Shown: positions 863 through 48,774 of the stretch, piece by piece
How the letters are laid out: every line of letters begins with the position of its first letter
Numbering within the stretch: position 1 is the stretch's first letter
Source of the DNA: a virus
Direction: 5' to 3' (one strand)
IMG/VR virus record: IMGVR_UViG_3300017971_000371
Span: 1-49,082 of that record
DNA: 49,082 nt
Position numbers and translations under genes: made by a program
The notes under the pieces: model-generated
Database searches by the model: none
What the model saw: only the letters and a program-made list of their open reading frames with translations
Told to the model about the DNA's origin: nothing

Positions 863-1272
863 TCACGGGGCATTCAAGAGCCTCTAAATGGTAGGCGCCA
901 GATCGACCCGTAACGACGCGGATCGGAGCGCGTTGCTAATAGCATCGCCCCTTTTTAATCTAACTTGCTCGCTATCAATCAAACCGTAACCAAGCAGGAT
1001 CTAAACGCTTCGAGCCAGTAACCAAGCGGCTCGAAGCGTTTTTGTCGGTTGGATCGCCACCCGCCGTTTCCACATTCTTACCACGCCTAAGGATCGGATG
1101 GTGCTCTTACGAGTCGGATTGCCGCTTTCACCGATCGGGGCGTCGTGAGGCGGAGCCCCGCACCATTACTGGGTTACAGCGTTTTTGGGGTGGGCGAGTT
1201 TGCTCGTTCAGCTATTTCGATGTGATTAGCAAGTGAGCAACAAGAGGCTATCAAGAGGCTATCAAGAGGTTA
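863..1272. other. Non-coding segment between the late operon and the next genes
   Basis: About 410 bases have no convincing gene on either strand. The segment is richer in A and T than the genes around it. It holds a 14-bp perfect hairpin (1003-1041), a 10-base direct repeat GTAACCAAGC (986-995 and 1018-1027, the second copy forming most of the hairpin loop), an 11-base palindrome TGCTAATAGCA (934-944), one copy of the TACGGGTCG family (904-912, inverted), and three tandem 11-base units beside the holin-like gene (1241-1273). On the minus strand, TTGATT and TTGATA boxes near 970-980, followed by an A/T-rich stretch near 950-960, could be a weak leftward promoter for the genes at 862 and 579. 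I cannot place it exactly. Confidence 0.6.
1003..1041. terminator. Strong hairpin, probable bidirectional terminator
   Basis: AAACGCTTCGAGCC (1003-1016) pairs perfectly with GGCTCGAAGCGTTT (1028-1041), giving a 14-bp stem and an 11-base loop. On the plus strand the stem ends in five T residues (1039-1043). On the minus strand it ends in three (1005-1003). It lies 230 bases downstream of the last late gene, where a leftward terminator is expected. The better T-run faces the other way, so it could also stop rightward transcription. Confidence 0.65.
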
Positions 1273-1273
1273 T
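1241..1273. repeat. Three tandem 11-base units at the 3' end of the holin-like gene
   Basis: The units are CAAGAGGCTAT (1241-1251), CAAGAGGCTAT (1252-1262) and CAAGAGGTTAT (1263-1273), followed by a partial CAAGA. The last unit abuts and overlaps the TGA stop of the minus-strand gene at 1273. Read on the minus strand each unit is (A)TAGCCTCTTG and supplies several stop codons. Slippage of a short terminal sequence is the simplest origin. Confidence 0.7.
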
Positions 1274-2230: not shown

Positions 2231-4846
2231 CTAACGGGTCGCCGGGTTCGGCAAGCGGTAGATGTCCGCGCCGTCCCGTTCCGACCCGTACCAAATGAAA
2301 GCCCCGTCGCACGCGACGCGCGCGGGGTAGTTGCTCCCGCATGTCCACGAAGGCGCCGCGAGCGCTTGAGCCGCCGCCGCCTTGCTATCGTTCGCGCCGT
2401 TGTAGCGAGTGCAAGGGAATTTCTCCAAATAGAGATTGTCGGTCGTGTCGTCGTCTTCTATGAAGAGCCACACGTTCGTTCCGTCGAACGCCATGTTCAA
2501 GGGGTTAGCGTCGTAGGTGGCGCCGCCCGCAACGCTCCCGACGAACTCCGTGTTGTTCCACGTCGGGGTTCCACCGGGATCGTTGACCACGCCGAGCTTG
2601 ACCGCTGTCACCGCGCTCGCGATCCGTTGGGGAACCCAAAGGTTCCACCCGTCGAAGAGCAGATCCATGCAATGAGCTTGCCCCGTGGACCACGGTCCGT
2701 TGACGCCGTCCGCCGCCATGTTCGCGAGGTTGATCGCAACGACGCGCCCGCTCGGAGAGGTCGTGTCGTAGAGGCTGAGATAGACGTCGGTCCCGTCGCA
2801 CGCGAGCCCCCCGTCGACGGTCTCGTTCGCCGAGCCGACCAGCGTCGCGCCGAAGCCGCTCGTTTGAAGAGCGCCATTCTTGTCGTACCGGAAGAGCGGA
2901 CCCGTTCCGCCGTTGGTTGGGAGGTTGCCGAGCGCGAGCACGATGTCGGAGCCGACACAGATCATTCGATCCTTGTCGTTGAGTGCAACCGAGGAAGCCG
3001 GGAGAGAAACCGGCCATGAGCCCGACGTGTCCTCGACGAACGCGCCGCCCGTGATCGTGTACTTGCGGAAGGTGTCGTCGTTGTAGATTACATAGAACTC
3101 GTTAGACCCCGAGGCACACATCGCCGCGGGCTCGATACTCGCGGACGCTCGAACCGTCGTGTCGATCACCGCCGTCGACATATCGAGCGGATCGATCATG
3201 ACGAGGTGTGTGTCGCCGGTCGCGCCGGTGCCGAAGCACGCGACGGAGAACCAGCGAGTTCCGAGCCCGTCGCCGCGGTCGTAGGTCACCGAGGCGATAT
3301 CGCAGAACTCGTAACCCGCGCCGCCCGAGAACACGTTCGCGCCTTGGTGCGGGTAGGCTCCGATCGTGTTCGAGTCCGTGAACTGCTTTCGCGCGATGTA
3401 GTCTTGCGCCGAGTCGGGGGGCCAGAACGAGAACGCGGGCTTATCCGCGATCAGATTGCCGACCACGTTGATCGGGCCGACCGCAACGTCCGCGCCGATC
3501 TTCGAGAGCTTCGTGTCGATCGCGCTTTCGAGCGAGAGGAGCTTCGCGCGAACGCTTGACGGGGTGGCGCCGTCGAGGAACCCCACGCGCGCGGCTCCGT
3601 CGGTTCCGGTGTTCGACGATATCGCGTTTTGCAAAGCGACGAACTTCGCGCGCACGTCCGAACCCGAGATTCCCCACGATAGCCCGCTCGACGTGTTGGT
3701 CGTATCGATCCCGATCTGCGCGGCGCCGGTGAGCGTCGTCGAGGCGAGGTCGTCGATCAATTCCTCCAAGAAACCTTGAACCTCGGTCGCACCCGTCACG
3801 AACGAGTGTGCCGATACGCCGATACGGGTCGCGCCCTCCGAACCCGCCCCCGTCGCCGCGAGGTCGTCGACAATCTCTTGAAGCGCCGCTTGAACGTCCG
3901 TCGAGGCGATCCACGAATACGCGGAGGAATCGATCACGCTCGCGGTGTGTCGCGGAGCCGAGCCGCCGATGTGATTGTCGATCGCTGTCGCCAACGCGGA
4001 CAGCGCGCCGGTTACCGCGGCGCTCGCCCACGAGACATAAGTGAGGCTCACGTCTGGAGTCCCGACAAGGTCCGAGCCGGTCGACTGCGCGAGGTCGTAG
4101 ACGATCGCGTCGAGCGCCTCTTGAACGTCGGTCACCGGGGGCGACGCGCCAGCGACGGCGACCGAGCCGAACCACGTCGACGTGAACGAGAACGGGAGCC
4201 CCGAGACCAGCGTGTCGATGTTAGCGAGAACCTGTTCGAACGCCGCCTTCGCGTCGCCCTTCGCTATCGTCCCGAACGTCGGCGACACGTAGCGGAGCCA
4301 TGTCTCCGCGCGCGTTACGTCGATGTCACCCGCGAGGATCTGAGTCTGCGAGAACGTAAGGGTGATATCCCCGAGGAGAAGCGCCGACGACATGAGCGGG
4401 GGCGCCGACGGAACGACCGCCTCCGCGCCTTGACGGAGGAAGATCTCCGCGTCCTCGAACTGCTCGGTGTAGATCGTGGCGCCGTTGCCGTCGGTCTCGG
4501 GAGCTTCGAGGCGCCGTTTGAAACGGACGAAGACGGAGAGGATCTTCGAGTTCGCCGCGCCGACGACCGCCGTCGAAACCCCGTATTCGTCAACCGTGCA
4601 ATCGAGGTTAGTCGTCGAGTCCGCGATGTAGATCCGTTCGCCTTCCTTGCCCGTCGCTACCAGCGGACCGGGAACGTCGACCGTGAGATCACCGAGCCCG
4701 TGTTGCGCGGGCTCCGAGGCGGAGTGAACCCCGACGAGATCGTTGTCCGTGGCGACTTCCCATATCGAATCCTCAACCCAACCGAACGCCTCATCCATCT
4801 CGCTCTCGGTTACGATCTGCTTGTAGTACCAATCGCGGAAATTCAT
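2231..4846 (-). CDS. Tail fibre with helical repeats and beta-propeller tip
   Basis: The product is 871 residues, with a strong GGAGGAG ribosome site. The N-terminus (MNFRDWYYKQIVTESEMDEA) is likely the baseplate-attachment end. From about residue 230 to 450 there are recurring shaft repeats with the core DVQ-A-L--IV-DLA (DVQEALDAIVYDLA, DVQAALQEIVDDLA, EVQGFLEELIDDLA), typical of trimeric fibre shafts. The last 390 residues contain blade-like repeats beginning with DG and an aromatic strand (DGTDVYLSLY, DGWNLWVPQR, DGTNVWLFIE, DGAFIWYGSE), consistent with a beta-propeller receptor-binding head. It directly follows gpI, the normal position for a tail fibre. Receptor binding is inferred from position and architecture. 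Confidence 0.8.
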   Translation of the reverse strand: MNFRDWYYKQIVTESEMDEAFGWVEDSIWEVATDNDLVGVHSASEPAQHGLGDLTVDVPGPLVATGKEGERIYIADSTTNLDCTVDEYGVSTAVVGAANSKILSVFVRFKRRLEAPETDGNGATIYTEQFEDAEIFLRQGAEAVVPSAPPLMSSALLLGDITLTFSQTQILAGDIDVTRAETWLRYVSPTFGTIAKGDAKAAFEQVLANIDTLVSGLPFSFTSTWFGSVAVAGASPPVTDVQEALDAIVYDLAQSTGSDLVGTPDVSLTYVSWASAAVTGALSALATAIDNHIGGSAPRHTASVIDSSAYSWIASTDVQAALQEIVDDLAATGAGSEGATRIGVSAHSFVTGATEVQGFLEELIDDLASTTLTGAAQIGIDTTNTSSGLSWGISGSDVRAKFVALQNAISSNTGTDGAARVGFLDGATPSSVRAKLLSLESAIDTKLSKIGADVAVGPINVVGNLIADKPAFSFWPPDSAQDYIARKQFTDSNTIGAYPHQGANVFSGGAGYEFCDIASVTYDRGDGLGTRWFSVACFGTGATGDTHLVMIDPLDMSTAVIDTTVRASASIEPAAMCASGSNEFYVIYNDDTFRKYTITGGAFVEDTSGSWPVSLPASSVALNDKDRMICVGSDIVLALGNLPTNGGTGPLFRYDKNGALQTSGFGATLVGSANETVDGGLACDGTDVYLSLYDTTSPSGRVVAINLANMAADGVNGPWSTGQAHCMDLLFDGWNLWVPQRIASAVTAVKLGVVNDPGGTPTWNNTEFVGSVAGGATYDANPLNMAFDGTNVWLFIEDDDTTDNLYLEKFPCTRYNGANDSKAAAAQALAAPSWTCGSNYPARVACDGAFIWYGSERDGADIYRLPNPATR

Positions 4847-4877
4847 TTCGCTTGTCTCCTCCGCCCTTACGGGTCGC

Positions 4878-7550
4878 CTACTCCATGAGTTCGCTCTCGT
4901 CGCCGAGAGTAGAAAGCCCGAGTTGCCAACCTTCCACGGGGACCGGCGCCGTCGGTCCGGTGACCCGCTTCAAGTGTGTGTGTGCCGGTTTCATGTAGTC
5001 CGCGATCCTCCGAATGATCTGCTCTTCTATAGATGATAGTGGATCGCTTGATACTACGTCAAAGCAGTAGAGCGTATACGAATCCCCCGGCGCGAGTTCG
5101 GCTCCGCCCGAGCCGCCGATCGCGCCCGTCGGGAAGTCGAGCACCGTCGCCGCCGTTCCGCCGAGCGCCTCGACGATCGAATCGACTCCGACCGTGTCCG
5201 ACTCAATCACGACTCGCGCCGCGTCGCTCCCTGTCGCGAGGGTAGTCGGTAGACCGAGCACCGCTTGAAGGGCGCCCGCCGCCACCTGTAGCGATTGCCC
5301 CGCGCCATAGACCAGCGTCATGATCTCCAACACGCCGCCCGTCCCCGCGCCAGCGACAACCCCGCTCGATTGATTGTTGATCTTCTCCGCCACGTCGAGC
5401 GCGTCGGTCTCGGTGCCGTCGAGGGTGACCGTGTAGCTGGACCCGTTGACCGTGAAGCTGAACGAGTCCCCCGGCGAGATAATCCACGGGGGCGCGATCG
5501 TCCCCGTTACGATCGCGCGCGTCCCGATGAGCGGAGCATACGCGCCGCCCCCCAAGAGTTGCGCCTCGATAGCCGTCGCGACTTCCTCCGCCTCCGCCGC
5601 GGAGGGCGTTACGAAGTCGACGCCAGCCGTCGAGGAGAACGTGAGCCGCTGAACGATCCGCCCGTCGGCGGTCGCGTCCGGTATCGCGGAAGCCACCGGG
5701 ATGATCGTCACGCCGCCGACCTCCGCCGCGCCGGGAGCCGCGACCGTATACGTCCCATCATTGCCGGTGCTCTCGACCACGCGGAACACGCGACCCGTAA
5801 GGAACTCCGACGCCCGCTCCCCGAGGATCGTGAAATCCTGATCAGGAACCGAGACCGCCGAGATCGAGGAGCCGCCGTCGATCGCCACGTAGAGATCGCG
5901 ATCGACCCCTGAAAAGTCGTAGGTCTCCGCCGCGCCCGAAACGATCTCCGCTTGCGCCCCCTCCCCGAGTTCGTCGACCCCGAGAACCCAACCGTCGCTT
6001 ATGTAGTCGACGACCTCGACCTCTTTCCCCAAGAGAAAACGAACCACGCTCTCGACGCCGACCGCCGTCCCCTTGAGCTTGTAGATCGAAACGAGCACGC
6101 GCAAGAGCTTGCGCTTTTCGAGCGCCGTGAGTTCGAGATCCGTCCATGCCGCGAACGGGTTCCCCACGTCGTAGAGCATCGCGTCGATCTGATCGTCGGT
6201 CGCCTTGTCGGGATCGTATTGATCGGTGAAGCGGTCGACCTCGTATGTGATCAGATCGAGCGCCTCTTGAAGCACATTGATAAACCGTCGGAGGTGACCC
6301 GTTCCCGCGTTGTCTTGCTCGCGGTTGACCAGCGGGATGAACTTCCACAAATCCCACCGACGCCCCTCGGGGATCGTGGGTTGGAATCCCGCGAACGCCG
6401 CCGTTGTCCAATCGGGATCGATCGCGTTGCCGCTCACGTCTTCGACGTCGCCGTCGACGGTCAAGAGGTAGTCGGCGAGGGGGGTCATCTCCCAGTTGAG
6501 CGTTAGATCAAACTCTTCGCCCGCCGCGCCCGCGGTAGTATCGGCTACCGCCACCGAGACAACCGACAAGTTGACCGCCGCCGTCGGTGGCGTCGTCTGT
6601 CGCGCGATCGTGAAGTTGTCCTCGGAGAGCACGGAGAGCGACGACCCCGTCGCGACCGTCGTCGGGAACCCGAGGATCGTGTTCGCGTCGCCCCCGGTGA
6701 CTTGCATCGTCACGCTGTCGCCTACCTCGTCGCTCAAAAGGTGGACGTAACCCGACACCGCGATCGCGCTCGCCCCATCGAGAGAGGCGCTCAACACGCT
6801 CGCGACTTCCTCCGCGGTAGCGTTCGACGGGTCAATGAAGTTGGACAAGAGGAAGGTCGCGGTTTGCGCGCTCCCTCCCTCGACCCTCGCGTCGAGAGTC
6901 TCACCGCCCGAGAAGTTGAACGGCTCCGCGAGCGTGCTCACGATCGTCGCGTTGCCGCCCTCGGGGTCGTCTTGCATTTCTTCGTTGAAGCGGACCCTCA
7001 CGGTTTTCTGATCGATCGGCTCCGCGCTCACAAGACGCGGCGCGGTGAGATCCTCCGCGGTGAAGTAGTAGGTTTCGGAGATCGTCGGCGACGTTGGCGG
7101 ACCCGACCCGAACGCGCCGGTCCCGAACGGACCGAAGCCGAAGCCGCCCGTCGCGCCAGCCGACACGCGCACGCCGACAACTTGCTCCGAAGAGAGAACC
7201 GCGGGCGACTGATCGCAAGTTACCTCGATGTAGAGATACGGGTCGGTCGCGGAGCTTTGCGCGGTAGTGCTCCCCGCTCCCGTCCAAGGCGCGGCGAAGC
7301 TGGCTCCGTCGAAGGCGACGACAAACCCGCTCCCGAGATCGATCTCGACTTGCATCGTGAAGCCGGTCGGGGGCGCCGCGGGATCGCCGTCCAGATCGAC
7401 GACTCTCGCGGTGACCGTCGAGGAGATCGCGATCCCCGTTTCGTCCGGTTGCGGGTCTCGCAAAATGATCGCGTACCGACCCGCAACGACCACGCCCTCC
7501 GCGTCGTCGACGGAAAGGAGCGCGATAAGTTGGTCAACCGTGAGGGGCAT
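4878..7550 (-). CDS. Baseplate tail protein I (P2 gpI-like) with large insertions
   Basis: In P2-like phages gpI joins the baseplate wedge to the fibres. The family core is split here. Residues about 395-525 carry its first part (WDLWKFIPLVNREQDNAG, ALEKRKLLRVLVSIYKLKGT, SVVRFLLG). The end (IEEQIIRRIADYMKPAHTHL, about 840-860) carries the conserved PAHT. Between them, about 540-820, sit beta modules resembling the flagellar-hook IN motif (693-775 is clearest). Another lies at about 207-305, preceded by an Ig-like strand pattern (PRLVSAEPIDQKTVRVRFNE). Length 890 residues against about 180-250 for P2-type gpI. The start is fixed by CGGAGGATAG before ATG; that TAG is the stop of the preceding gene. 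Confidence 0.8.
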   Translation of the reverse strand: MPLTVDQLIALLSVDDAEGVVVAGRYAIILRDPQPDETGIAISSTVTARVVDLDGDPAAPPTGFTMQVEIDLGSGFVVAFDGASFAAPWTGAGSTTAQSSATDPYLYIEVTCDQSPAVLSSEQVVGVRVSAGATGGFGFGPFGTGAFGSGPPTSPTISETYYFTAEDLTAPRLVSAEPIDQKTVRVRFNEEMQDDPEGGNATIVSTLAEPFNFSGGETLDARVEGGSAQTATFLLSNFIDPSNATAEEVASVLSASLDGASAIAVSGYVHLLSDEVGDSVTMQVTGGDANTILGFPTTVATGSSLSVLSEDNFTIARQTTPPTAAVNLSVVSVAVADTTAGAAGEEFDLTLNWEMTPLADYLLTVDGDVEDVSGNAIDPDWTTAAFAGFQPTIPEGRRWDLWKFIPLVNREQDNAGTGHLRRFINVLQEALDLITYEVDRFTDQYDPDKATDDQIDAMLYDVGNPFAAWTDLELTALEKRKLLRVLVSIYKLKGTAVGVESVVRFLLGKEVEVVDYISDGWVLGVDELGEGAQAEIVSGAAETYDFSGVDRDLYVAIDGGSSISAVSVPDQDFTILGERASEFLTGRVFRVVESTGNDGTYTVAAPGAAEVGGVTIIPVASAIPDATADGRIVQRLTFSSTAGVDFVTPSAAEAEEVATAIEAQLLGGGAYAPLIGTRAIVTGTIAPPWIISPGDSFSFTVNGSSYTVTLDGTETDALDVAEKINNQSSGVVAGAGTGGVLEIMTLVYGAGQSLQVAAGALQAVLGLPTTLATGSDAARVVIESDTVGVDSIVEALGGTAATVLDFPTGAIGGSGGAELAPGDSYTLYCFDVVSSDPLSSIEEQIIRRIADYMKPAHTHLKRVTGPTAPVPVEGWQLGLSTLGDESELME

Positions 7551-11537: not shown

Positions 11538-12665
11538 TCAACCCTCCTCGGAGATCAAGCGGAACGCTACCTCGTGATTTCCGAGGAGCCTCCGCACGGG
11601 GGCGAAAAAGTCTGTCCACGTCCGCCGCTCGCTTGCGCTTACGGGTCGCGAGACATAGACCTCGCCGTCGATCAAAATTTGCATGAGCCAGTGAATATCG
11701 AGCGCGGTCGGCGCCGCCTGTAGTGCTGCGAGATCGGCTTGGTGTTGCGCGAGCCCGTGATAGGTGTTCGACAACCGCACGCTATCGATCGCCCCCCACA
11801 AGTCGGGGTCGGCGATCTGGATCGCCCCGTCGGGGTAGGGGTTGAACGGACCGACCCCGAACGCCGAGAACCCCACGTCGACCAACGCGCCATCGACGAA
11901 CAGATCGAAAGCGTTCCCCACGCCCGCCCACGATACCGTGAAGAAATGCCATCCCGAGCTTGCGGTGATAGTGAATGCGCCCGTGTTGCTCGACGAGGAG
12001 ACCCCGAAAAATCCGTGAGTCACGGAGATCAACCACGAATGCGCGCCGGGACCGACGGCGCCCGAGAGCGCGATCTTCAACCCGCTCGCGAACGGCGAGT
12101 CGGTGAGCATGAAGATCACGGGGTCGACACCCGACGATCCGACGTGAGAGTCGGCGTCGAAGTTGAGCAGGAAGTCGACCGAGTAGGCGGAGAGCGCCCC
12201 GCTCCAAACCTCGGGCTCGTTGCCCCCGTCGAGTTGACCAGCGAACGAGAGCGCGGGGATCTCGCGACACAAACCCGCCGCGGCGCCGAACGTCTCTCTC
12301 GCTTGGCGCAACGCGGGAACCCCGGTCAAGTGGTGCGCGCCGGGGGCGTCGTCGAGGGCGCCGCGCGAGTTGCTGTTCATCGGGTAGTTGAGCAGGGTAT
12401 CCGAGAGCGTCGGAAGTTGCGCGGGCTTGAGCACACCGGGATCGGCGGGCGCCCGAGTGTCGAACGTGGCGCCGACGAGATCGACATCTTCGAGGTTGAC
12501 CGTTTGCTTGATCTCGGTGAAGTCGCCGCCCGTGATCAACGCGCGCTCGATCAGCGCCTCCGCCCCGAGCGCGAACACGAACGACCCGTCGGGAGCGGTG
12601 AAGGTCGAGGGCTCGATCCTCCCGCTCTTCGTGGCTCGGTAGTGGTCGAAATCTGTCGCGCTCAT
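11538..12665 (-). CDS. Lectin-like (LamG/ConA-type) baseplate or fibre protein
   Basis: The product is 375 residues; GAGAGGG precedes the ATG, with one TACGGGTCG-family copy (12665-12673) inside the spacer. Residues about 110-310 have the strand order of a laminin-G/concanavalin-type sandwich: a domain entry (LLNYPMNSNSRGALDDAPGA), a middle beta-sheet (YSVDFLLNFDAD), W-H-F-F-TVSW, LFVDGALV, and the closing DPDLWGAIDSVRLSNTYHG. The final part (ALDIHWLMQILIDGEVYVSR and following) is separate. Such domains bind sugars, so host-surface contact is likely but inferred. It sits among fibre genes downstream of baseplate J. Confidence 0.65.
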   Translation of the reverse strand: MSATDFDHYRATKSGRIEPSTFTAPDGSFVFALGAEALIERALITGGDFTEIKQTVNLEDVDLVGATFDTRAPADPGVLKPAQLPTLSDTLLNYPMNSNSRGALDDAPGAHHLTGVPALRQARETFGAAAGLCREIPALSFAGQLDGGNEPEVWSGALSAYSVDFLLNFDADSHVGSSGVDPVIFMLTDSPFASGLKIALSGAVGPGAHSWLISVTHGFFGVSSSSNTGAFTITASSGWHFFTVSWAGVGNAFDLFVDGALVDVGFSAFGVGPFNPYPDGAIQIADPDLWGAIDSVRLSNTYHGLAQHQADLAALQAAPTALDIHWLMQILIDGEVYVSRPVSASERRTWTDFFAPVRRLLGNHEVAFRLISEEG

Positions 12666-12679
12666 ACGGGTCGCCCTCT

Positions 12680-33699: not shown

Positions 33700-34230
33700 T
33701 CATTCCTCCGTCGGCTCGTCGACTTGGTGGAAGTGCGGGCTCGCTTTCATGAACCGTCGAAGATCTCCCGGCGACACGTTCGCGGGAATCCATTCCTCGG
33801 TGCCTGGAACCTTCGAGCGCTTGAGCACCTCCGCGACGAACTCCGAGCAGAACAGGCGACCGTGCGAGTGAATTGCCTTGTCGACTTCCCAGCCGCCGAC
33901 CCGTAAGAGCACGGCACGGAGTAAGCCGACGAGCAACCCTCGCCAATCGTAACGCGCCATTCCGACGAATCTCCCCATCGCCCTCATGCCTATGCCGAGA
34001 TCGAGGTCGCTCTCCCAGTGCTCGATGTAGTCGAAGCGCGCGAGGTATCGAGCGTCTATGTCCCGCGGTCCCCGCTCGTCGATCTCGGTAGCGCGCCACG
34101 CTCCCCAAAACGGATCATCGTGCTTGACGAGCGAGTGGTTCACGCGGGAGCGCGTCGCCCACCGGATCAGCTTCCCATACCACTTGCGGGTCGCGGTGAG
34201 GCAAACGAGAATTCGGCGGCGCGTGCTCAT
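33700..34230 (-). CDS. Permuted papain-like (NlpC/P60-related) peptidase
   Basis: The product is 176 residues. The start chosen is ATG at 34230, which shares its A with the preceding stop (TAATG); the frame is open further upstream but lies inside the previous gene. NHSLVKHDD (His32) near the N-terminus and LFCSEFVAEVL (Cys128) near the C-terminus match the circularly permuted NlpC/P60 or YiiX-type layout, in which the His comes before the Cys. DYIEHWESDL and YDWRGLLVGLL between them are also typical. In virions such enzymes cut peptidoglycan peptides. It could be a virion-borne lysin or the endolysin of this phage; context favours the former. Confidence 0.62.
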   Translation of the reverse strand: MSTRRRILVCLTATRKWYGKLIRWATRSRVNHSLVKHDDPFWGAWRATEIDERGPRDIDARYLARFDYIEHWESDLDLGIGMRAMGRFVGMARYDWRGLLVGLLRAVLLRVGGWEVDKAIHSHGRLFCSEFVAEVLKRSKVPGTEEWIPANVSPGDLRRFMKASPHFHQVDEPTEE

Positions 34231-35033
34231 TATTCCCCGCTGTATTCTTGGTCGAGGTGAACTTGAACGTCGGGATACCTGACTCGACAATACTCGATCT
34301 CTCCGCCGTCCTCGGTCTTGTACGGCTGATCGTCCGAGATCTTGATCGTTACGCTGTAGAAGTATGGCATCGGCGCCCCAGGGGGGGCGACCGCCGTTCG
34401 TAGCGTGAGCGGTTGGGGGAAAAGATACTCGTACCACTCGATCGTGTTCTCGTAACGGTCGACCGAGATCTTCACGAGACTCGTGAACCTGTCGAGGAAG
34501 TCGTCGAGGTTCTTGTAAACCGTTTCTTTGATCGTCGTGCCGTCCTTTGCCTTGTAGATGATCAGCAACGGCGAGTGCATTCGCGCGTTTTGCGACATCT
34601 TGAGCCACACCGACGAGATAAGGATCGCCTGTCCCCATCCCTGATCGGGGTTCTCCGCTGGCGCGACCATGAACGCCGAATCGAAGTTGTTGTAAGCCAC
34701 GTTCCCCCCCGAGGTGAACGGCTCGAAGTCGGCGCCGTCGGTGTCGTCGAGATCGAAGAGATCGTCGCCGACCTTAGTCGCGGTAAAGGTCTTGCCGTTG
34801 AGAGAGGTCGTGCCGCCCACGTCGCTGAACGTGACATGCATCCCGGTCTCCACGCCAGCCGCGACGACCCGCACGCGCACCGGGGCGCCCGCGCTTGTTG
34901 CGACACTCTCGACCGCCAAGTCGCCAGTTGTCCACCCCTCCGAGGGCTTGGCTTGCCATGTCTCGGGATCGCGGAAGTCGTGACAAGGCAAGCTGTCGGT
35001 GTAAAGCGCGTTAGGTGATAGTCCGCTGATCAT
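34230..35033 (-). CDS. Phage structural protein with FCCH-like beta domain
   Basis: ATG at 35033 overlaps the preceding stop (ATGA) and has GGGAGG seven bases upstream; an ATG two codons earlier is too close to that site. The product is 267 residues. Residues about 50-110 (RVRVVAAGVETGMHVTFSDV, SLNGKTFTATKVGDDLFDLD, FTSGG) follow the pattern of the E1-FCCH-type domain found in many phage surface proteins (G-M-x-x-LNG-x-x-F-x-V ... F-x-L). The C-terminal part (YSVTIKISDDQPYKTEDGGE) is beta-rich. Function is unknown; the head-tail junction or a head appendage is likely from position. Confidence 0.62.
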   Translation of the reverse strand: MISGLSPNALYTDSLPCHDFRDPETWQAKPSEGWTTGDLAVESVATSAGAPVRVRVVAAGVETGMHVTFSDVGGTTSLNGKTFTATKVGDDLFDLDDTDGADFEPFTSGGNVAYNNFDSAFMVAPAENPDQGWGQAILISSVWLKMSQNARMHSPLLIIYKAKDGTTIKETVYKNLDDFLDRFTSLVKISVDRYENTIEWYEYLFPQPLTLRTAVAPPGAPMPYFYSVTIKISDDQPYKTEDGGEIEYCRVRYPDVQVHLDQEYSGE

Positions 35034-35497: not shown

Positions 35498-37005
35498 TAG
35501 TAATTCTTCTCCATGCCTAGCATCGCGGAATTGAGGTTCCCCGAGAGCGCCGAGTGATCGAAAATCCATTCGATATAATCTCCGACGTCGAGGTCAAGGA
35601 TCACGGGGGGAAGAGTTATCGCCTGATCCTCGTTGCCGTAGTTCCCCGTTCGGAGCCGCGTCCCGGTGACCTCGGTCGTTCCGTTCTTGCGAACCCACGC
35701 CTCGCATGTCCAAGTGAACCCGCCTGTGCTGTCGATATTTGCAAATCCGCTAACGTGGTATTCGCCCTTGAAAGCCGCATAGAGTCTGGTCGGATTCGTA
35801 GGATTATCCCAGTAGCTAACGTCGGGGTTCCCGCCGTGATCCTCGGTGTCGAACGGGACCGGGGTCGGCGTCCCGAAGTTGCTCGACGCCCACGTCGCCG
35901 CGCGCCGAACCTGCAAATGGTGGTGGACCGTTGAGATCCTCATCCACGTTGTCGCGAGACCTCCGTTCACGGCACCGAGCATTATGCTCTCGGAATCGTG
36001 CGACAAGAGGACCGAGACGAGCCCGTCGCTGAACGCGCCACTACTCGCGATGTCGACGGTCAACTCGTTATCGCCCGAGAAGTTGCCGACGTAGATCGGC
36101 CCGCGGAACATTCCATCGTTAGGGAGCCCGCTCGCCGCGGGAAGCGTGAAGGTGAGATCCGCGGTCGTCTCGTTGCCGGTGTTGTCGGTGCCGTCGAAGG
36201 CGAAGATCTTCCCGTCGTCGGTGCCGTCCGTGTACGGTGCGATCAATGCGGTCGTTGTTGAGAGTTGAACGCGTACCCCCGCGCGCACGTAGCCGCTCCC
36301 GTCGTGAGGAACCACGAACGCCCAAGCGCTCCCCGTCCAGTAGACGATCGCGCCAGCCCCTACCGCGAGAGAGCCCGCGGTGAGCGTGCCGCTGTCGGTG
36401 ACCGTGTAGGAATCACCCGCCGTCGCGCTGATCCCGTTGAGATAGGACACACTCCCGTTCCCGACGTGGCTCGTCACGCTGATCGCCGTGTTAAAAAATA
36501 CCGCGTGCCCGAACGCGTAAAGCTCGGACCACGAAGGCGCCCAATCTTCGCCGAGCACCTTGCCGTAAGGGACCAAGGGGAGCGGCTCGTTCTTCCACTC
36601 GCCCGCGGTCTCGTCGTAATAGATCTTGCACCCCATACGAAGCGACGAGAACGTGAGGTCGCTCCCCTTGAGAGACCCCGCGTCTTGCTCGTCGGCGAGT
36701 ACGCCAGAAAGACCCGCGACGCTGATCTCGTCGCCCCCGCCATTTTGGTGAGACGAAGCGTGCGACGTTGGCGCTTGCGGGTCGGCAAGTGTGCCGCTCA
36801 ACCCCGCGACGCTGATCTCGTCGGCTCCCCCGTTCTCGTGCGTCGACGCGTGAGCGGGAAGCGTGCCGCTCGAAGCGAACTGGATCTCGTTCCCGCTCTC
36901 GTCGAGCGCGTAGAGGTTGCCGTCGCTCTTGAAGTAAAGCTCGGAATATCCCGCGGGCGGATTCGAGGTCGGCGTCGATTGATGTTCGAGTCTATGCTTT
37001 CCCAT
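35497..37005 (-). CDS. Head or tail fibre with HASxH repeats and C1q-like tip
   Basis: The product is 502 residues. The N-terminus has the LYFKSDGNLYALDESGNE element seen at many fibre bases. Residues 51-110 are two tandem 30-residue repeats with the core HAS(T/S)H-x-NGG-x-DEISVAGLSG; paired histidines in such repeats bind metal in known fibre shafts. The C-terminal 150 residues (HVSGFANIDSTGGFTWTCEA, WVRKNGTTEVTGTRL, VILDLDVGDYIEWIFD) look like a C1q/TNF-type trimeric tip. The start directly abuts the previous stop (TAAATG). Confidence 0.7.
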   Translation of the reverse strand: MGKHRLEHQSTPTSNPPAGYSELYFKSDGNLYALDESGNEIQFASSGTLPAHASTHENGGADEISVAGLSGTLADPQAPTSHASSHQNGGGDEISVAGLSGVLADEQDAGSLKGSDLTFSSLRMGCKIYYDETAGEWKNEPLPLVPYGKVLGEDWAPSWSELYAFGHAVFFNTAISVTSHVGNGSVSYLNGISATAGDSYTVTDSGTLTAGSLAVGAGAIVYWTGSAWAFVVPHDGSGYVRAGVRVQLSTTTALIAPYTDGTDDGKIFAFDGTDNTGNETTADLTFTLPAASGLPNDGMFRGPIYVGNFSGDNELTVDIASSGAFSDGLVSVLLSHDSESIMLGAVNGGLATTWMRISTVHHHLQVRRAATWASSNFGTPTPVPFDTEDHGGNPDVSYWDNPTNPTRLYAAFKGEYHVSGFANIDSTGGFTWTCEAWVRKNGTTEVTGTRLRTGNYGNEDQAITLPPVILDLDVGDYIEWIFDHSALSGNLNSAMLGMEKNY

Positions 37006-37758
37006 TTACCCTAGCCTTTGCAGCGTCAACCCCGACGCATTGGCGAGGAGCGCGAGGCTCGATCCGCCGTTGGCGAGTTGCGCCTGAACCTTCAACCTGT
37101 CGCCCGCGGCGAGGGACAAGATCCGCGTCACGCTGGCGGAGTCTTCTCCGAGGTTCAGAGTCCTATTATACATCGCCGCCCTCGAACCCGACAATTCCGC
37201 GAAGCCGCTCCCGGTGTCGATAGCGATCCGCATCCTGCTATCCGTGCGACTCGTTCCCGACGTGATTGTCGTTCCACAACGCGCGCTCACCAAGTAACGA
37301 CCGGCGACCAAAACGACCACGGAGGGTTCGGGCGTCGAATGCTGGAACACGTCGCCCGGTGTAGCGACATTGGTCAAGGGCACGTCAACCCATGACGCCC
37401 CGACCACCGTCCCGCCCGCACCGTCGAACGCGTCGAACGCTTGCGGGTCGCTCCCGCCGAAAATAACGCTTGTTCCCTCGACGATGTAGACGCCTGATCC
37501 CTCCGTGGTGAAGGTGTCGTTTACTATGTGTTGGTGATCTTCCTTGACGCGGAAGGTGTCGCCGTCCTCGACCTTTTCCTTGACTTGATCGTCACCCTCG
37601 GACGCCGCGACGAGTTCCGAAAGTGTTGGCGTGCCGCTTACAACCTGATCCTTGAAGACGAGGTTACCGCTTGCGTCCTTGCCGACGGCGACCTCTTCCT
37701 CGCCACCGAGCCCGAACCACGAGGCAACGGTTCCGGCTAACTTCTCCCATCGCGACAC
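37006..37758 (-). CDS. Fibre protein with C1q-like C-terminal domain
   Basis: The product is 250 residues from GTG at 37758, with GGCGAGG close upstream. The N-terminal MSRWEKLAGTVASWFGLGGE is similar to that of the next gene upstream (MAWYEKLRGIIGNLFQFDGQ), which supports the GTG start and suggests a shared anchor. The C-terminal 150 residues (SWVDVPLTNVATPGDVFQHS, SVVVLVAGRYLVSARCGTTI, RILSLAAGDRLKVQAQLANG, LTLQRLG) have the strand order of C1q/TNF-like trimers. A head or neck fibre is likely from position. Confidence 0.65.
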   Translation of the reverse strand: MSRWEKLAGTVASWFGLGGEEEVAVGKDASGNLVFKDQVVSGTPTLSELVAASEGDDQVKEKVEDGDTFRVKEDHQHIVNDTFTTEGSGVYIVEGTSVIFGGSDPQAFDAFDGAGGTVVGASWVDVPLTNVATPGDVFQHSTPEPSVVVLVAGRYLVSARCGTTITSGTSRTDSRMRIAIDTGSGFAELSGSRAAMYNRTLNLGEDSASVTRILSLAAGDRLKVQAQLANGGSSLALLANASGLTLQRLG

Positions 37759-38602: not shown

Positions 38603-38625
38603 AGAGCTTTCTCCTCTCTTTTCGT

Positions 38626-39718: not shown

Positions 39719-39745
39719 TTTCGATCCTCCGTTTTTTTGTGAGGG

Positions 39746-40027: not shown

Positions 40028-40063
40028 GTTTCTTTACCTTCGGGCTTTACCTCAATGGCGATC

Positions 40064-40351: not shown

Positions 40352-40731
40352 GCCTCGATCTCCTCGCCGGTCATTTGATTGATTCGCTCGTTCGCCTTGT
40401 CCGCGTTCTCTTTCGCAAGCGCCGCCTTGAGCTTCTCTCCCCCTGGCGTCTTGACGCCGCCGCGCCGAGTGACACACCGACAAATGATCGGGATCTTCAC
40501 CTCACCCTCGACCGTGTTGATCGTCTTGTAGCCTACGATCCCGGTTCCATTGCATCGCTTGTGCCCCGGCTTCGCCTTCGAGAGATCAACGTCTTCGGCC
40601 CGCGCCACCGGGGGCGCCCTGAGAGGGCCCACGCTCGCCGCTGTCGCCGCCTCCGCCCCTTCCCCTTGTCGGGACACCCGCCGACCCGTATCGGCCCCTG
40701 GACGCGGTCCTCGTAAGTCTCGCTCGCTCAT
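40348..40731 (-). CDS. Small protein with CxGTG zinc-knuckle
   Basis: ATG at 40731 overlaps the previous stop as ATGA. The product is 127 residues. A polar, Arg-rich N-terminus leads to HKRCNGTGIVGYKTINTVEG, then IPIICRCVTRRGG, which is half of a DnaJ-type cysteine knuckle (C-N-G-T-G with a later CRC). The C-terminus is a charged helix (LKAALAKENADKANERINQM). It lies in the middle of the coupled trio of small Cys proteins. The function is unknown. Confidence 0.62.
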   Translation of the reverse strand: MSERDLRGPRPGADTGRRVSRQGEGAEAATAASVGPLRAPPVARAEDVDLSKAKPGHKRCNGTGIVGYKTINTVEGEVKIPIICRCVTRRGGVKTPGGEKLKAALAKENADKANERINQMTGEEIEA

Positions 40732-41179: not shown

Positions 41180-41674
41180 CTACTTGCGCGAACGCTTCGA
41201 CTTGCTCTTCGACGCCTTCGACGACTTGGGCTTCGCCTCGGTGCGCTTACGGGTCGTTCCCCCGCTCACGTCCGTCGAGGTGAGTGCTCCCCCGCTCTCG
41301 GGCTCCTCGGTGTCGGGCGCCTCGTCGTTCAGATCGTCGCTCATGTCGTCGAGGTTCACCTCGCGAGCCGCCGCGTCGCCGCGGGCTCGGTGGATCGTGA
41401 GACCGGCGCTCCGCCGACGTCTCTCCTCTTCCGCGATCCTCTCGCGTCGAACGAGATCCTTCGCTTCCGCCGTCGTGCAAACGTCGAAGGCGAGGGGCGA
41501 GTCGGCATCGTTGTGTTCCTGTCGGCAATCGCGCAAGTAGTCGGCGGTCGAGAGATCGACCTCGTACCAGCGACCCGACTCGAAGCGGACGCCGCGGAAA
41601 ACGTAGCGCCTGAGAACGTGCCCGCGCTTGGGCGCGAAGGGCTTGAGCCTGACCAACATTTTCGAAGTTGCCAT
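41180..41674 (-). CDS. Phage protein with beta N-domain and basic tail
   Basis: The start is ATG at 41674 (MATSKMLVRLKPFAPKRGHV) behind GGGAGAGAAACCG; 16 more codons upstream are open but lack a site. The product is 164 residues. Residues 1-65 (KPFAPKRGHVLRRYVFRGVR, FESGRWYEVDLSTADYLRDC) form a compact beta domain that I have seen in many phages directly after capsid genes. A charged helix follows (KDLVRRERIAEEERRRRSAG), then an acidic, and finally a Lys/Ser-rich tail (KSSKASKSKSKRSRK). Its function is not known. Confidence 0.68.
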   Translation of the reverse strand: MATSKMLVRLKPFAPKRGHVLRRYVFRGVRFESGRWYEVDLSTADYLRDCRQEHNDADSPLAFDVCTTAEAKDLVRRERIAEEERRRRSAGLTIHRARGDAAAREVNLDDMSDDLNDEAPDTEEPESGGALTSTDVSGGTTRKRTEAKPKSSKASKSKSKRSRK

Positions 41675-43203: not shown

Positions 43204-44280
43204 CTATTCGAAGCGGAGATCGTCGTCGGGCTCTTCGACCGCGTTCAGATCGCAACCGTCGCCCCAATCGGCCCGCTCTTCCCCTCTCGACTTCTGAACG
43301 CCCTCGGGTTGAATCGAGTTCGGCATCGGCTCCGAGGATTCGAGCGCGCGGATTTTTTGGTTCTGTTCGCCGACCGTCTTCGAGAGACCGGCGATTTGCT
43401 GAGAGAGCACCGGGATCGCCGCGACCGCTTTCGAGACATTCTCGATCGCTGTCGTGACTTCGGCGGGGACCGCTGGCGCCGCGGTCGGCGTCGGGGTGGG
43501 CGCGGGCTTGCTGAACGCGGCGAGCGCCTTGCGGAGTTCGTCCGCAACTGCGTTCACCTCGTCGAGCGCCTTACGCATCTCGGCGTCCTCGCGTTCCTGC
43601 TCGACGCCCTTTCGGGCCATTTTCGCGCCGCACTTGGGGCATACCTTTTCGGTACACATTTCGCCCGCCTTGCCGACCTCTTCGTATCCGCACTTCGCGC
43701 AAACGCAAACCTTGTTCTCGGCGCCGACGGCTTTCTCGGTGTCGGCGGCTTGCGGCGCTTGCGGGTCGGCGGGGGTCTCGGGCTCGGTCGACTCGGGCTC
43801 GGCGCCCTCCGCCTTCGCGGTATCGGCGGCGCGTCCCGAGGTCGGCGACGGATACTTCTCGCCGATCGTCATGATCAGCTTGCCGATCGCCTCGCACTCT
43901 TTCATGAGTTCAGCGGGGATCGGCTGGTCGATCTGCTCGTCGGTGGTCGGCGCGTCCTTGATCTTGTTGACGACGCCCATGAGCTTCGAGAGAGCCTCCG
44001 TCGCGACCTTGAGAACGGAGTCCTTGACCCCCTTCGGGATCGGGCCCATCGCCTTGTCGACGTCCTCGGGGACGCTCTCGGGCTCGGTCGTGAGTTCGCC
44101 GTTCTCGTTCTCGATCACTTCGTCGCCGATCGGGGTCTCCATGCCTTCCTCCCGTTTGATGAGCAGAAAGCGCCGCCGATTGGCGGCGCGGTCGACGAGC
44201 GAGACTTCCTTGACCTCCATGTCGAGCAGTCTGTGAACCTGCTTTGAGAGTTGCTCAATTCGAGCGAAGAGGTCGTTCAT
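43204..44280 (-). CDS. Capsid scaffold-like protein with XkdF-type start and zinc ribbon
   Basis: The product is 358 residues. Residues about 21-45 (MEVKEVSLVDRAANRRRFLL) match the segment found at the end of XkdF-type protease/scaffold proteins. An acidic disordered part, then a zinc ribbon (Cys192, 194, 197, 209, 214, 217: VCVCAKCGYEE and VCPKCGAKM), follows. A Pro/Ala linker leads to a coiled coil (about 270-315, TAIENVSKAVAAIPVLSQQI) and an acidic tail. Such proteins sit between protease and capsid genes and guide shell assembly. The ribosome site is weak (GGTTGAGACC); the leader carries promoter-like boxes. Confidence 0.72.
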   Translation of the reverse strand: MNDLFARIEQLSKQVHRLLDMEVKEVSLVDRAANRRRFLLIKREEGMETPIGDEVIENENGELTTEPESVPEDVDKAMGPIPKGVKDSVLKVATEALSKLMGVVNKIKDAPTTDEQIDQPIPAELMKECEAIGKLIMTIGEKYPSPTSGRAADTAKAEGAEPESTEPETPADPQAPQAADTEKAVGAENKVCVCAKCGYEEVGKAGEMCTEKVCPKCGAKMARKGVEQEREDAEMRKALDEVNAVADELRKALAAFSKPAPTPTPTAAPAVPAEVTTAIENVSKAVAAIPVLSQQIAGLSKTVGEQNQKIRALESSEPMPNSIQPEGVQKSRGEERADWGDGCDLNAVEEPDDDLRFE

Positions 44281-44424
44281 GGTCTCAACCGTTGCGCGTT
44301 GCGAGCGTATCCGACAAGACCGACCCGTAAGGGCGAGGGATTGGGGAACGCGGGCTTCGCATGGTTCGTTGTCTCCTGTCGCGCTTTCGTGTTCCCCCTA
44401 CGAAGTTGCGCGATCCGTGTCTCG

Positions 44425-44491: not shown

Positions 44492-47400
44492 GCGGAAGTC
44501 GAAACGGGAACCCTTCGAGCGCTACCGCCGATCGAAAATCCGGTCCATTTCCCGGTCTTGACGTCCGACCATAGCTTGTCATCGATCACGCGCACAACGA
44601 GGAGCCACGTTCCGCGCTTGACCTTTTGACCGCCGATCGTCATGTCGACGGGCGCAAGGAACGATTCGAGGATCTTGATCTTACCGTTGGCGAGTTCACG
44701 ATGCATGATTCCCATGTTCGCGAATCGTTCCATGTAGCCGTGAGCCGCCTCCGCGATCGCTTCCTCCGAGTAGATATCGCCTTGTGCGTCTACTTCCTCG
44801 GGAACCAACACGATCCCATAAACGATCCGCTTCTCTCCCGCGGCCTTGATAATCGGAACCTCTCGCTCGACCTCGAAGAGCCCGTCGAGAACTTTCTTGA
44901 TCTCCTCGGGCTTCGCCAGCGCGACGACTTCCTCCGCCTTCATGGGGCGACCCGTAACAACCCCGATCACATTCGGCGTGAACCAATGAACGGAATGCTT
45001 GTCACCCGAGGCGTCAACAAGTATCTCGGTCGCCTCGACTTGGATCACGTCGCCGACCTTCGCGTCCGCGTCACTGTTGGACGTGCTCCCGATCGGTGCG
45101 TAGGTTTTCCCGTCGACCTCGACGGTCGCCTTCCACTGGTCGGGGTTTACAGGCCCGATGGCGCAAAGGAAGTTGTAAACCCCCGGCGAGTCCTTGACGG
45201 GATGTCGTTCGTATACGATCGCGCGGATCTCTCTACCGTCCTTGACCTTGCGCTCGGGCGTCTCGACCTTCGCGCTCTCGCTCCTCGGGGCTTCCCCCTC
45301 TATTACGTCGGCGTCGTAGAGGTGGACGTCGTCGGAATCCCAGGGATCGCCGTCGTCGCTCTTCTCCATGTCGTCGCCGGGGGCGAAGGTCCAGATCGAC
45401 GATCCTTTCTCTTCGGCGGCGAGCGTGTAGAGACCGCGGAGCTTCTTACCGTTGAACCGAGCGCGCACGACGCCCGGTCCCATCTCGACGAACTCGACGG
45501 TCCCCTCGTCGACGATCGAGATCTCCGACGGCGTCGCCTTCGTGTCGTTGAGAACCTCACCGCCATAGGCGCGCCCCGGCTCGACGTCACCTTCGAGAGA
45601 GAAGAGCGCCTCGTTCGAGTCCGAACGCTTGACCGCCGTGATCGGATCTTTCTCCGCGAGCGGATCGCGTTGGAGTTCCCAACCGGGAAGCCCCTTGATC
45701 GAAAGAATCCAGATCTGGCGCGAGGGTCCGCCCCTTACGACGCGTTGACCCTTCCACCGTTGCCACGAAAGCGCGAAGCGCGCGGAGCCGAGCGCCTTCG
45801 TCGGCGTGTAGTCTGAACCGTCGCCGGTGTAGAGGAAACGCTTCGCGATCACTCGACGGAATTGACCGTCAACGATCCTCACGTTCTCGTCGGTGAAGAA
45901 CCTCTCTTTAACGAGAGCATCCCTGATATCTTGGGCTTCCTTGCCGGTCGCCTCCCAGTAACGGAACTGTTTCGGCGTCACCACTTCGAGCGAGCGGGGA
46001 AGCGCGCTCTTCCCGTTCGGTGGCATCGTGCCCTCTCTCACCGCCCGCGGCTTGAGCACGGAAGGAAGCGTCGACTTGGTGATCATCCCGGTCCAGAAAG
46101 TTTCGCCCTCGGGGGTCCGCCTCCCCTGCTCATACGGGTCGCCCCCCTCCCCTTCGAGCTTGATCGCCTTCGACGTCCCGGTGAGTTGTCGGAACGCCAT
46201 GATCCCTTGAACGGTCGAGTCCTTGCCGGTGAAAAAATATTCGTGGAAGAACGGCTTTTGAATGCCCCACTCGACGGACGGGCGATCAACGGCAACGATC
46301 ACGCCGACCTCGTTCGGCGACGCACCCACCTCACCGGGTTCGAACTTGCGCCCGCTGATTTCGAGCCACTCGATCGGTTGTCGCATTTTCTGGAACGCGG
46401 CGACGCGAGCGGGGGAGCGGAACGGCTTCCCATACCGATCACCGTCCGGCGAGAATCCGTCGCCGATCCGCTTCGCCTCTTCGACCGTGTCGACGACGGG
46501 AACGACGCCGGGGCGCTGGGTTGACAACGTCCACCCGACGAGGAAGTCGGGCGCGACCTTCATTCTAAGATCGACGTGTAGCGACTTCCCGCGAAAGTGA
46601 TACTGAAACACCGCCGCGAGCGGTCCCTCTTCCTTCGGCCAATCGAGGAGAGGATCGTCCGCCTTTTGAAGTCTCATTTCCTTGGTCGCAAACTCGGGAC
46701 GAACCTCGACAACGAGATCCGCGAGTTCGACGTGATCGGTGAAGGGCCCTCCGAGATCGTCGTCGATAACGGAGAGGCGCTTGCTCAATTCGGGCGGTAA
46801 CATGCGGGCGAGCCTGAACTTGATCACTTGAAGCAACTCGGGGGAAAGCGGACCCTTCACCAAGAGGTCGATATCGCCGCGGGTCTTTCCATGATTCGCC
46901 AACGATCCGACGAGCCAAAGGAACGGCATCCTCACCTTGAAGGAAGAGAACAACGGAAGAACGTCGTCGAGCTTGATCAACTCTCCGGTGCCTTCACCGC
47001 CTGGATTGACGACGGCGAGTTCGCGCTTTTCCGTTTTGCTGTTACGGGTCGCGCGAAGTTGCTCCGCCTCTATAGCGAGCGCCGTTTGCTTCGGCTTCAT
47101 GTCGCGATCTTCCATCTCGGCGGCGACGAAAATGTAAGCGTTGACGACCGCCTCGCGATTGAGATCGCCAGCGGTGACGCGGTTGTTTCCCTCGAAGTTG
47201 CCCCCGTAAATTTGGTGAAGGCGCCGGTTGATCGATAGCAACTCGCGATCGTCTACCGCCGCGAGCGCCCTCGGGTTGATCTCGTCGACTCCGAGCTTCG
47301 AAACTTCCTCGCGCTTCGCGATCCCGCACTCGAACTGCTCGACGATATCCGCTTTGTGAACTTCCTCGATGAGATCGCGCGCTTGATCCTCGTGATCGGA

Positions 47401-48774
47401 ACACGCCCCAACGATCCCACCGTTCCACGCCAGCGCGAGATCGGCGAGCCCGTCGCAGAACTCGCAAGCGACGACGCCGTCGGCGCTCTTACGGGTCGGC
47501 TCTTCCCCCTTGTCATAGTTCCAGATCAGCGATCGCCGCTTGCCAAGGGGGGCGCCTTTGAGAGCCCTCGCGAAGTTGTAACGGCGCCACCCCTCGCCGG
47601 GATCTATCTTGTCAAGGGTGGAGACCAGAACGCGCCCCTTGAGCGCCGAGAGCCCCTCCGAGAGCTTGCTCACGTCGTCGTCGGACCACTCGGGCGCCTC
47701 CGTCTCTTCCTCCGCCATGCGCGCCCCTGAGAGCGGCGGATCGAGGTACATGAAAACCCCCTCGCCGTCGTACTTGCGCGCAACCTCTAACCCGTCCGCG
47801 TCGAGAATCTCTACCCCTTCCAATCGCGCGCGGTATCCTTCGAGGTTCTTGAGGAAGATCTCGCCGGTTTGTTTTGCGGTGCGATCGGAGTGGTCAACGC
47901 GAGCCCCTCGCCCCTGTATTGAAAAAAGGTTGAGATACTTGAAGCGATACGCGCGACCGCGCAACGAGCGCGGCGACTGTCCCTTGAGCTTCTCGAAGTG
48001 CTCGGGATCGAGGCTCCATTTCTGCGATCTGAACCACGCGAGATCCTCGTTGCTTGCCGCCTGTAGAAACTTGTAGAACGCGACAACACCGCGATCCCTG
48101 TCCGCGAGGATCTCCCGCTTGGCTCGGGCTTTCGCCCAAAAGAGCGGAGCCGCTCCCGCGTAGGGTTCGATATAGGTCTCGTGATTCGGAACTCTTGCGA
48201 GCAACGAGCGGAGAATCGGGATCTCCGCCCCCGGTGAGCGGACGGGAGCCGGGAGACTCCCCGCACGCTTGTAGAACTCGACCGCCTCGTCGCGACCCGT
48301 AAGCACCTCGGGAAGATCGGCGAAGGCTCGAAGCCCGTCGATCCCCGCGTCGACCGCGAAGCGGAACTCGTCGGGCATGTCGCCGAACGATTTCCGAATG
48401 CCCATCGAAGCGGAGAGGAGAGCCGCGCCCAATTCGAGCGGTGAGCCGGTGACGGACGGCGCCCCCTCCCCTTTCTCGTCTTCTAAGCGCGCGAACTCTT
48501 CGGAGAGGTTTTTCGCTATGGAAGGCAGGGTCTCCAACACGTTGACCGCATCGGCGTTGTCCTTGTCGGCCAGCAACGGAGCGATAACGTCGTCGCCCAA
48601 CTCCACGATCGCTTTGGCGAACTCCGCGGCCAACGACGGAGCCGAAAGCGCGCCGATGGCGTCCGCCCCGTCAAGCTCGACGGTCGCTTCAATCTCTCGC
48701 TCGGTTGCGGGCTTGCGCCCACCTTTCACGGCGCCTGTAGCCGCCCTGAACCCATCCTCTCGCGTATCGCTCAC
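44488..48774 (-). CDS. Giant multidomain protein ending in an XkdF-type prohead protease
   Basis: 1428 residues from GTG at 48774 behind GGAGGTCCAAG. Order: helical part (1-175); D12-type adenine methyltransferase-like domain (about 183-425; YIEPYAGAAPLF at 201, then YLDPPLSG at 343, so DPPL instead of DPPY); CEFC...CSDH zinc knuckle (437-461); helical block with RRLHQIYGG; nucleotidyltransferase-like motif LVGSLANHGKTRGDIDLLV (621-639); LigD-phosphoesterase-like module with LHVDLRM (732-738); a second, degenerate one (about 998-1130; IWILSI at the same place); OB-like part (about 1180-1275; GDVIQVEATEILVDASGD); XkdF protease (about 1312-1425; His1358 in MHRE, Ser1414 in GFSIGG). The protease should mature the prohead. 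The rest may be packaged and cut free, which is inference. Confidence 0.78.
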   Translation of the reverse strand: MSDTREDGFRAATGAVKGGRKPATEREIEATVELDGADAIGALSAPSLAAEFAKAIVELGDDVIAPLLADKDNADAVNVLETLPSIAKNLSEEFARLEDEKGEGAPSVTGSPLELGAALLSASMGIRKSFGDMPDEFRFAVDAGIDGLRAFADLPEVLTGRDEAVEFYKRAGSLPAPVRSPGAEIPILRSLLARVPNHETYIEPYAGAAPLFWAKARAKREILADRDRGVVAFYKFLQAASNEDLAWFRSQKWSLDPEHFEKLKGQSPRSLRGRAYRFKYLNLFSIQGRGARVDHSDRTAKQTGEIFLKNLEGYRARLEGVEILDADGLEVARKYDGEGVFMYLDPPLSGARMAEEETEAPEWSDDDVSKLSEGLSALKGRVLVSTLDKIDPGEGWRRYNFARALKGAPLGKRRSLIWNYDKGEEPTRKSADGVVACEFCDGLADLALAWNGGIVGACSDHEDQARDLIEEVHKADIVEQFECGIAKREEVSKLGVDEINPRALAAVDDRELLSINRRLHQIYGGNFEGNNRVTAGDLNREAVVNAYIFVAAEMEDRDMKPKQTALAIEAEQLRATRNSKTEKRELAVVNPGGEGTGELIKLDDVLPLFSSFKVRMPFLWLVGSLANHGKTRGDIDLLVKGPLSPELLQVIKFRLARMLPPELSKRLSVIDDDLGGPFTDHVELADLVVEVRPEFATKEMRLQKADDPLLDWPKEEGPLAAVFQYHFRGKSLHVDLRMKVAPDFLVGWTLSTQRPGVVPVVDTVEEAKRIGDGFSPDGDRYGKPFRSPARVAAFQKMRQPIEWLEISGRKFEPGEVGASPNEVGVIVAVDRPSVEWGIQKPFFHEYFFTGKDSTVQGIMAFRQLTGTSKAIKLEGEGGDPYEQGRRTPEGETFWTGMITKSTLPSVLKPRAVREGTMPPNGKSALPRSLEVVTPKQFRYWEATGKEAQDIRDALVKERFFTDENVRIVDGQFRRVIAKRFLYTGDGSDYTPTKALGSARFALSWQRWKGQRVVRGGPSRQIWILSIKGLPGWELQRDPLAEKDPITAVKRSDSNEALFSLEGDVEPGRAYGGEVLNDTKATPSEISIVDEGTVEFVEMGPGVVRARFNGKKLRGLYTLAAEEKGSSIWTFAPGDDMEKSDDGDPWDSDDVHLYDADVIEGEAPRSESAKVETPERKVKDGREIRAIVYERHPVKDSPGVYNFLCAIGPVNPDQWKATVEVDGKTYAPIGSTSNSDADAKVGDVIQVEATEILVDASGDKHSVHWFTPNVIGVVTGRPMKAEEVVALAKPEEIKKVLDGLFEVEREVPIIKAAGEKRIVYGIVLVPEEVDAQGDIYSEEAIAEAAHGYMERFANMGIMHRELANGKIKILESFLAPVDMTIGGQKVKRGTWLLVVRVIDDKLWSDVKTGKWTGFSIGGSARRVPVSTSA

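Follow-up and report, generated by a model that had tools for sequence, protein, structure and literature searches.

A 9-nucleotide word, TACGGGTCG, recurs along the whole of the IMG/VR virus record IMGVR_UViG_3300017971_000371, and it raises the question of what might read such a word and why a virus would carry it through its genes. The window analysed here is this complete record of 49,082 bp, which is the middle part of a bigger phage genome. Nearly all of its genes lie on the minus strand; they encode tail sheath, baseplate J, tape measure and capsid, together with a 1428-aa protein (44488-48774) in which an N-terminal D12 methyltransferase-like domain is fused to a C-terminal XkdF-type head protease domain. 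The virus is an uncultured contractile-tail phage with a genome of approximately 100 kb, and megablast against annotated phages returned no match.

Overlapping contigs of the same virus bring the total examined, in pieces, to about 94.5 kb, and from the nearest relative (G002, see below) we estimate that part of the genome was not recovered. IMGVR_UViG_3300017963_000402 (G001) matches window positions 10120-49082 at 99.98% and has an extra 4.2 kb with the portal gene; this contig is overlapped at 99.95% by IMGVR_UViG_3300028840_003491 (G396/L110), which contributes about 12 kb more, encoding terminase, a tyrosine integrase and a methyltransferase. IMGVR_UViG_3300017963_002549 (L112) adjoins the left end of the window, where the order at the junction is uncertain, and is overlapped at 99.99% by IMGVR_UViG_3300028840_002020 (G446), whose genes encode RecT, a YqaJ exonuclease, a RuvC-like protein and what we take to be a DnaB-like helicase. 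At this left end (window 1-92) the window, L112 and G446 join differently within a VWA-domain gene, reflecting either structural variants or assembly joins. At the other end, right after 48774, degenerate G+C-rich tandem repeats (48879-49082) differ among contigs and in G001 code for a Pro/Glu/Ala/Thr-rich protein.

Counts and enrichment of the word

Recounting the window gave the same figures as the initial annotation for TACGGGTCG (26 exact copies, 14 on the plus and 12 on the minus strand) and for its extended form TTACGGGTCG (19 copies). The ten copies of CTTGCGGGTCG reported for the variant carrying G in place of A were slightly off, as the eleven copies of TGCGGGTCG include ten of TTGCGGGTCG and nine of CTTGCGGGTCG. 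Apart from the few sites described individually below, the extended form lies on the plus strand at 14149..14157, 15826..15834, 30315..30323, 31357..31365, 41248..41256, 47043..47051 and 47490..47498, and on the minus strand at 5791..5799, 15232..15240, 15709..15717, 26191..26199, 33897..33905, 44948..44956 and 48293..48301. Further copies of TACGGGTCG are found at 3823..3831, 7237..7245, 21187..21195 and 46133..46141 (plus) and at 2282..2290 and 40682..40690 (minus), and the copy at 11640..11648 (plus) has the full consensus, GCGCTTACGGGTCG. The TGCGGGTCG variant occupies 29370..29378, 34185..34193, 36776..36784, 37442..37450 and 43760..43768 on the plus strand and 7477..7485, 21939..21947, 22842..22850, 26214..26222, 33222..33230 and 34865..34873 on the minus strand.

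Order-2 Markov expectations are 0.74 for TACGGGTCG and 0.13 for TTACGGGTCG, bearing out the excess over base composition that had been claimed, and both words are among the very highest-ranked under this model. When synonymous codons in the window are shuffled they are the top-enriched 9-mer and 10-mer, so the excess is not one shared equally by many words. Over 500 such shuffles TACGGGTCG appeared 5.85 times on average, about five of these being noncoding copies that were held fixed, and never more than nine times against the 26 observed; the initial annotation had named 20 or more as the yield that would speak for a coding effect. As the virus avoids restriction-like words, the shuffle was repeated with 361 depleted words preserved in addition to the codons, which gave a mean of 5.97 over 199 retained samples and, among the samples listed, none with more than nine copies. 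The over-representation is explained neither by protein coding nor by restriction-site avoidance.

The count was extended beyond the window, as had been suggested, and the word continues over the whole virus. The 94.5 kb carry 76 sites, approximately one per 1.25 kb, at a density that is uniform across contigs; overlapping contigs found later provided a held-out confirmation, carrying the word at equal density. The earlier description of a word spread over the structural region is correct for that region but not specific to it, the replication and terminase regions having the same density.

Motif, orientation and spacing of the sites

Across the 76 sites the full motif is 5'-G-Y-N-S-T-T-R-C-G-G-G-T-C-G-3', which is asymmetric and 14 bp long. 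The 9-mer and 10-mer first reported hold, but the motif reaches 5 bp further upstream. The core 9-mer is invariant except at R, and the upstream preferences are graded, with G at -5 in 59/76 sites, Y at -4 in 65/76, S at -2 in 72/76 and T at -1 in 64/76; they are not present at 36 CGGGTCG sites that lack the preceding TR. Single mismatches within the core occur near background frequency, suggesting that recognition is strict. We also searched around the word for palindromic or paired half-sites and observed no preferred second half. A stronger context requirement for the G variant, with CT upstream, was considered and set aside: the contrast of 22/24 versus 16/35 weakened to 25/33 versus 21/43 (Fisher p 0.02) with added sites, and is accordingly only suggestive.

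The sites are divided between the strands (41 plus, 35 minus) and relative to transcription (40 in the same and 36 in the opposite orientation), and all six phase and orientation classes relative to genes are represented, in agreement with the differing phases and orientations noted initially. Copies between genes also occur, as had been noted. While 33 of the 37 window sites lie wholly within coding sequence, four touch noncoding DNA, where 1.7 are expected (p 0.09): the TTACGGGTCG copies at 904..912 and 44321..44329 (both minus) are intergenic, the TTACGGGTCG copy at 4868..4876 (plus) sits inside a 31-bp gap separating two genes, and the TACGGGTCG copy at 12665..12673 (plus) overlaps a start codon and the ribosome-site spacer.

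The longest gap between TACGGGTCG copies in the window, from 33897 to 40682, agrees with the approximately 6.8 kb given at first for a word spaced about once per 2 kb; that account missed a spread more even than random. At each of the eight bin sizes, the site counts per bin vary less than under randomness (p 0.0007-0.04, in tests that are not mutually independent), and gap-length variation by itself is only suggestive (p 0.06). Near-equal use of both orientations combined with an even spread is a feature resembling that of uptake sequences.

The word in related phages

The nearest relative, IMGVR_UViG_3300009506_000005 (G002, 113.8 kb), is largely collinear with this virus at about 58% amino acid identity, the sheath being 65% and the baseplate 69% identical. 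In its 113.8 kb there are four copies of TACGGGTCG and one of TGCGGGTCG, without the flanking pattern, and the TTACGGGTCG site at 21044..21052 (minus) is the sole one whose 9-mer recurs at the homologous position in G002. Site-by-site comparison revealed mostly substitutions at homologous codons, both synonymous and non-synonymous, with a few sites in indel regions, and on this ground we rejected insertion of a mobile unit as the origin of the word. Residues under the word are 50.4% identical between the two phages versus 57.9% elsewhere (p 0.08), and thus show no extra conservation. Together with the substitutions at homologous codons, this indicates that the word arose, mostly by point substitution, within genes that were already there and at positions that tolerate change.

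Other virus contigs related through the sheath or the baseplate (17 and 38 records) showed no bulk occurrence of the word, and a two-copy pattern search in other viruses found many copies only in contigs of this one. The same holds for the 14-mer GCGCTTACGGGTCG in IMG/VR, where among the matches listed (80 of 114 stretches) only this virus's contigs have many copies. Among the viruses examined, the word is restricted to this virus.

A related phage, IMGVR_UViG_3300045051_000987 (G427), has a word of its own: the 18-bp palindrome TGTTCACCCGGGTGAACA recurs 18 times in perfect form, scattered along its first 100 kb (L264-L268), the only near-copy having four mismatches, and elsewhere in IMG/VR the palindrome is found as a single copy in one other contig. 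Like the word studied here, it is private, invariant and dispersed across the phage genome; unlike it, it is palindromic, present as 18 perfect copies and unrelated in sequence. Since it is palindromic and its copies are perfect, the parallel is a loose one. Five copies of the 16-bp core of TGTTCACCCGGGTGAACA occur in G096, one of the sampled Myxococcota genomes, three of them on one 5.7-kb contig, and G012 (L059-L063) has an enriched palindromic word of the GGTCGCGCGACC type with several close copies. Enriched words in G419 and G426 were discarded as resembling words of leaders or ribosome sites and of local repeats, and the one in G004 resembles, in our reading, a tRNA T-arm.

Candidate readers of the word

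Our preferred explanation, which we put forward tentatively, is that the sites may be bound genome-wide by a virus-specific, sequence-specific DNA-binding protein; we infer both the binding and its function. The word would belong, as its core, to an asymmetric recognition site of 14 bp, which selection would hold at its density of one per 1.25 kb across the entire phage genome. A protein, most likely encoded by the virus, would bind these sites regardless of the direction of transcription, so as to coat the viral DNA, organise it or mark it, in a nucleoid-type, self-marking or prophage-silencing role. With about 76 copies on both strands and through genes, the virus must gain something genome-wide. 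The known dispersed phage sites that we compared are tied to transcription or limited to one strand, and the dissimilar pattern found here points to a function at the level of the DNA itself, such as organisation, self-marking or protection. Of the meanings first proposed for the word, a site for a DNA-organising or packaging protein is the one that remains as the best fit.

The word is private to this virus, and a relative has one of its own, which makes a virus-encoded reader probable; proteins whose site specificity shifts from one relative to the next would account for a private word such as that of G427. A host protein, or an enzyme, might play this part just as well. Since G002 shares the tyrosine integrase but lacks the word, this integrase is an unlikely reader unless its specificity has changed. 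In a check for parS/ParB-type centromere sites, ParB_N (PF02195) had no match in the contigs of this virus searched (G000, G396 and G446), whose genome is incompletely recovered, or in G427, and the scanned genes of the recovered part included none recognisable as a repressor. It is conceivable, although we consider it doubtful, that a phage group probably infecting Myxococcota carries private genome-wide landmarks, here the asymmetric 14-mers and in G427 the perfect palindromes, read by fast-diverging virus proteins whose role would be the organisation, protection or marking of the whole viral chromosome. If so, these landmarks would be to phages what chromosome-organising or uptake words are to bacteria, and might be linked to survival under very heavy restriction.

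Uptake sequences (USS/DUS) occur about once per kb in both orientations, are evenly spaced, combine a strict core with a looser flank and are tolerated in coding DNA. A word of the host genome of this kind, or one like Chi, which the phage would mimic or acquire by recombining with host DNA, matches the geometry observed here well: evenly spaced sites, about one per 1.25 kb and randomly oriented, a strict core with a looser flank, sites in both coding and noncoding DNA and an origin by point mutation. However, the Neisseria DUS and Haemophilus USS, which share this geometry, are words of bacterial chromosomes, whereas the present word is found in a phage and is not enriched in the genomes surveyed. 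The metagenome-assembled genomes (MAGs) that hold sheath relatives are titled mostly Myxococcota or deltaproteobacteria, so that Myxococcota is the likely host phylum, as judged from titles of MAGs whose contigs are possibly misbinned. The phylum of G013, a Polyangia MAG, was sampled with 379 genomes, in which TTACGGGTCG reached at most 11 copies each and was usually below the reversed control; likewise CTTRCGGGTCG was not enriched in 284 genomes overlapping the 379. The survey as a whole covered Myxococcota plus two single genomes of other phyla. The word is also missing from the collinear G002, and no other many-copy virus appears among the matches listed for GCGCTTACGGGTCG. The sampled Myxococcota genomes thus give no support to a host word of the Chi or uptake type, a proposal that we regard as unlikely.

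The word may instead be where an enzyme encoded by the virus acts on the viral DNA, such as a nickase or a modification or packaging enzyme, but this too seems improbable. Localised single-strand interruptions are described in T5, phiKMV-like phages and phage tf, all on one strand, with 14 nick sites in tf and five major ones in T5 (PMC3517423). The core, which is strict and asymmetric, measures about 10 bp and tolerates one substitution, is similar in form to the phage tf nick site, 5'-TACTRTGMC-3' (PMC3517423), and the nick sites of these phages are likewise strict, asymmetric, phage-specific and present in several copies. They are, however, few and confined to one strand (PMC3517423), whereas the present word has about 76 copies on both strands (41 versus 35). 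The virus does encode two methyltransferase-like proteins, as well as a Topo6A-like DNA topoisomerase family protein (phrog_6247, L227 856-1740) with no homologue detected in G002. Both the methyltransferase of L110 and the D12-domain protein nevertheless have homologues in the word-less G002, and modification alone does not require over-representation of its target.

Dispersed repressor operators or transcription roadblocks, as in the cluster A stoperators or the SPBRE of SPbeta, are quite unlikely. The stoperators, bound by the repressors of L5, Bxb1 and Trixie, are asymmetric 13-bp sites in many copies genome-wide (PMC6550527, PMC9283540). They resemble the present word in being asymmetric, phage-specific and numerous and in varying in sequence between relatives, and the integrase suggests that this virus may be temperate. 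Stoperators, however, lie mostly in one orientation to transcription (PMC6550527), whereas the word here is randomly oriented (40:36), mostly intragenic and present in about 76 copies. SPBRE, a 15-bp site at about ten places in intergenic regions and promoters, is bound by MrpR, which has a tyrosine-recombinase fold (PMC10516654). It is likewise a dispersed phage site and is read by one phage protein; in contrast to its intergenic and promoter positions, 33 of the 37 window sites here are wholly coding, and unlike the MrpR case the integrase is common to a relative without the word. Stoperators, nick sites and SPBRE each fail one tested feature as families, although the word could work in a similar way.

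Palindromic 6-mers are avoided to an extreme degree by this virus: of the 43 that could be tested over the 94.5 kb, 22 fall below 10% of their order-1 Markov expectation and most of these are absent, including CGGCCG (0 observed, 110 expected), CTCGAG (0/79), TCCGGA (0/65), GAGCTC (0/50) and CCCGGG (0/47). Depleted non-palindromic words include CTGAC, GCAGC, CGGCC and AGGCC. The corresponding proportions of avoided palindromic 6-mers are 3/47 in G002, 13/52 in G012 and 20/61 in G414. Broad avoidance is usually read as long exposure to many restriction systems, and its extent here makes this virus a good case for how phages survive hosts with many such systems. Although very many words are avoided and this does inflate another word, CGCTGGCG, it is almost certain that TACGGGTCG is not itself a by-product of restriction-site avoidance, codon usage or base composition, given 26 copies versus about 6.0 with codons and the 361 depleted words preserved, and copies in all phases and between genes. 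CGCTGGCG/CGCCAGCG is a second enriched word (54 versus 5.5 expected in the 94.5 kb), whose neighbours CGCCGGCG, CGCAGGCG and CGCTAGCG are absent. In the window its 26 copies compare with typically 5-15 when avoidance is preserved, and we rejected it as a second functional word, its excess being largely a by-product of avoidance.
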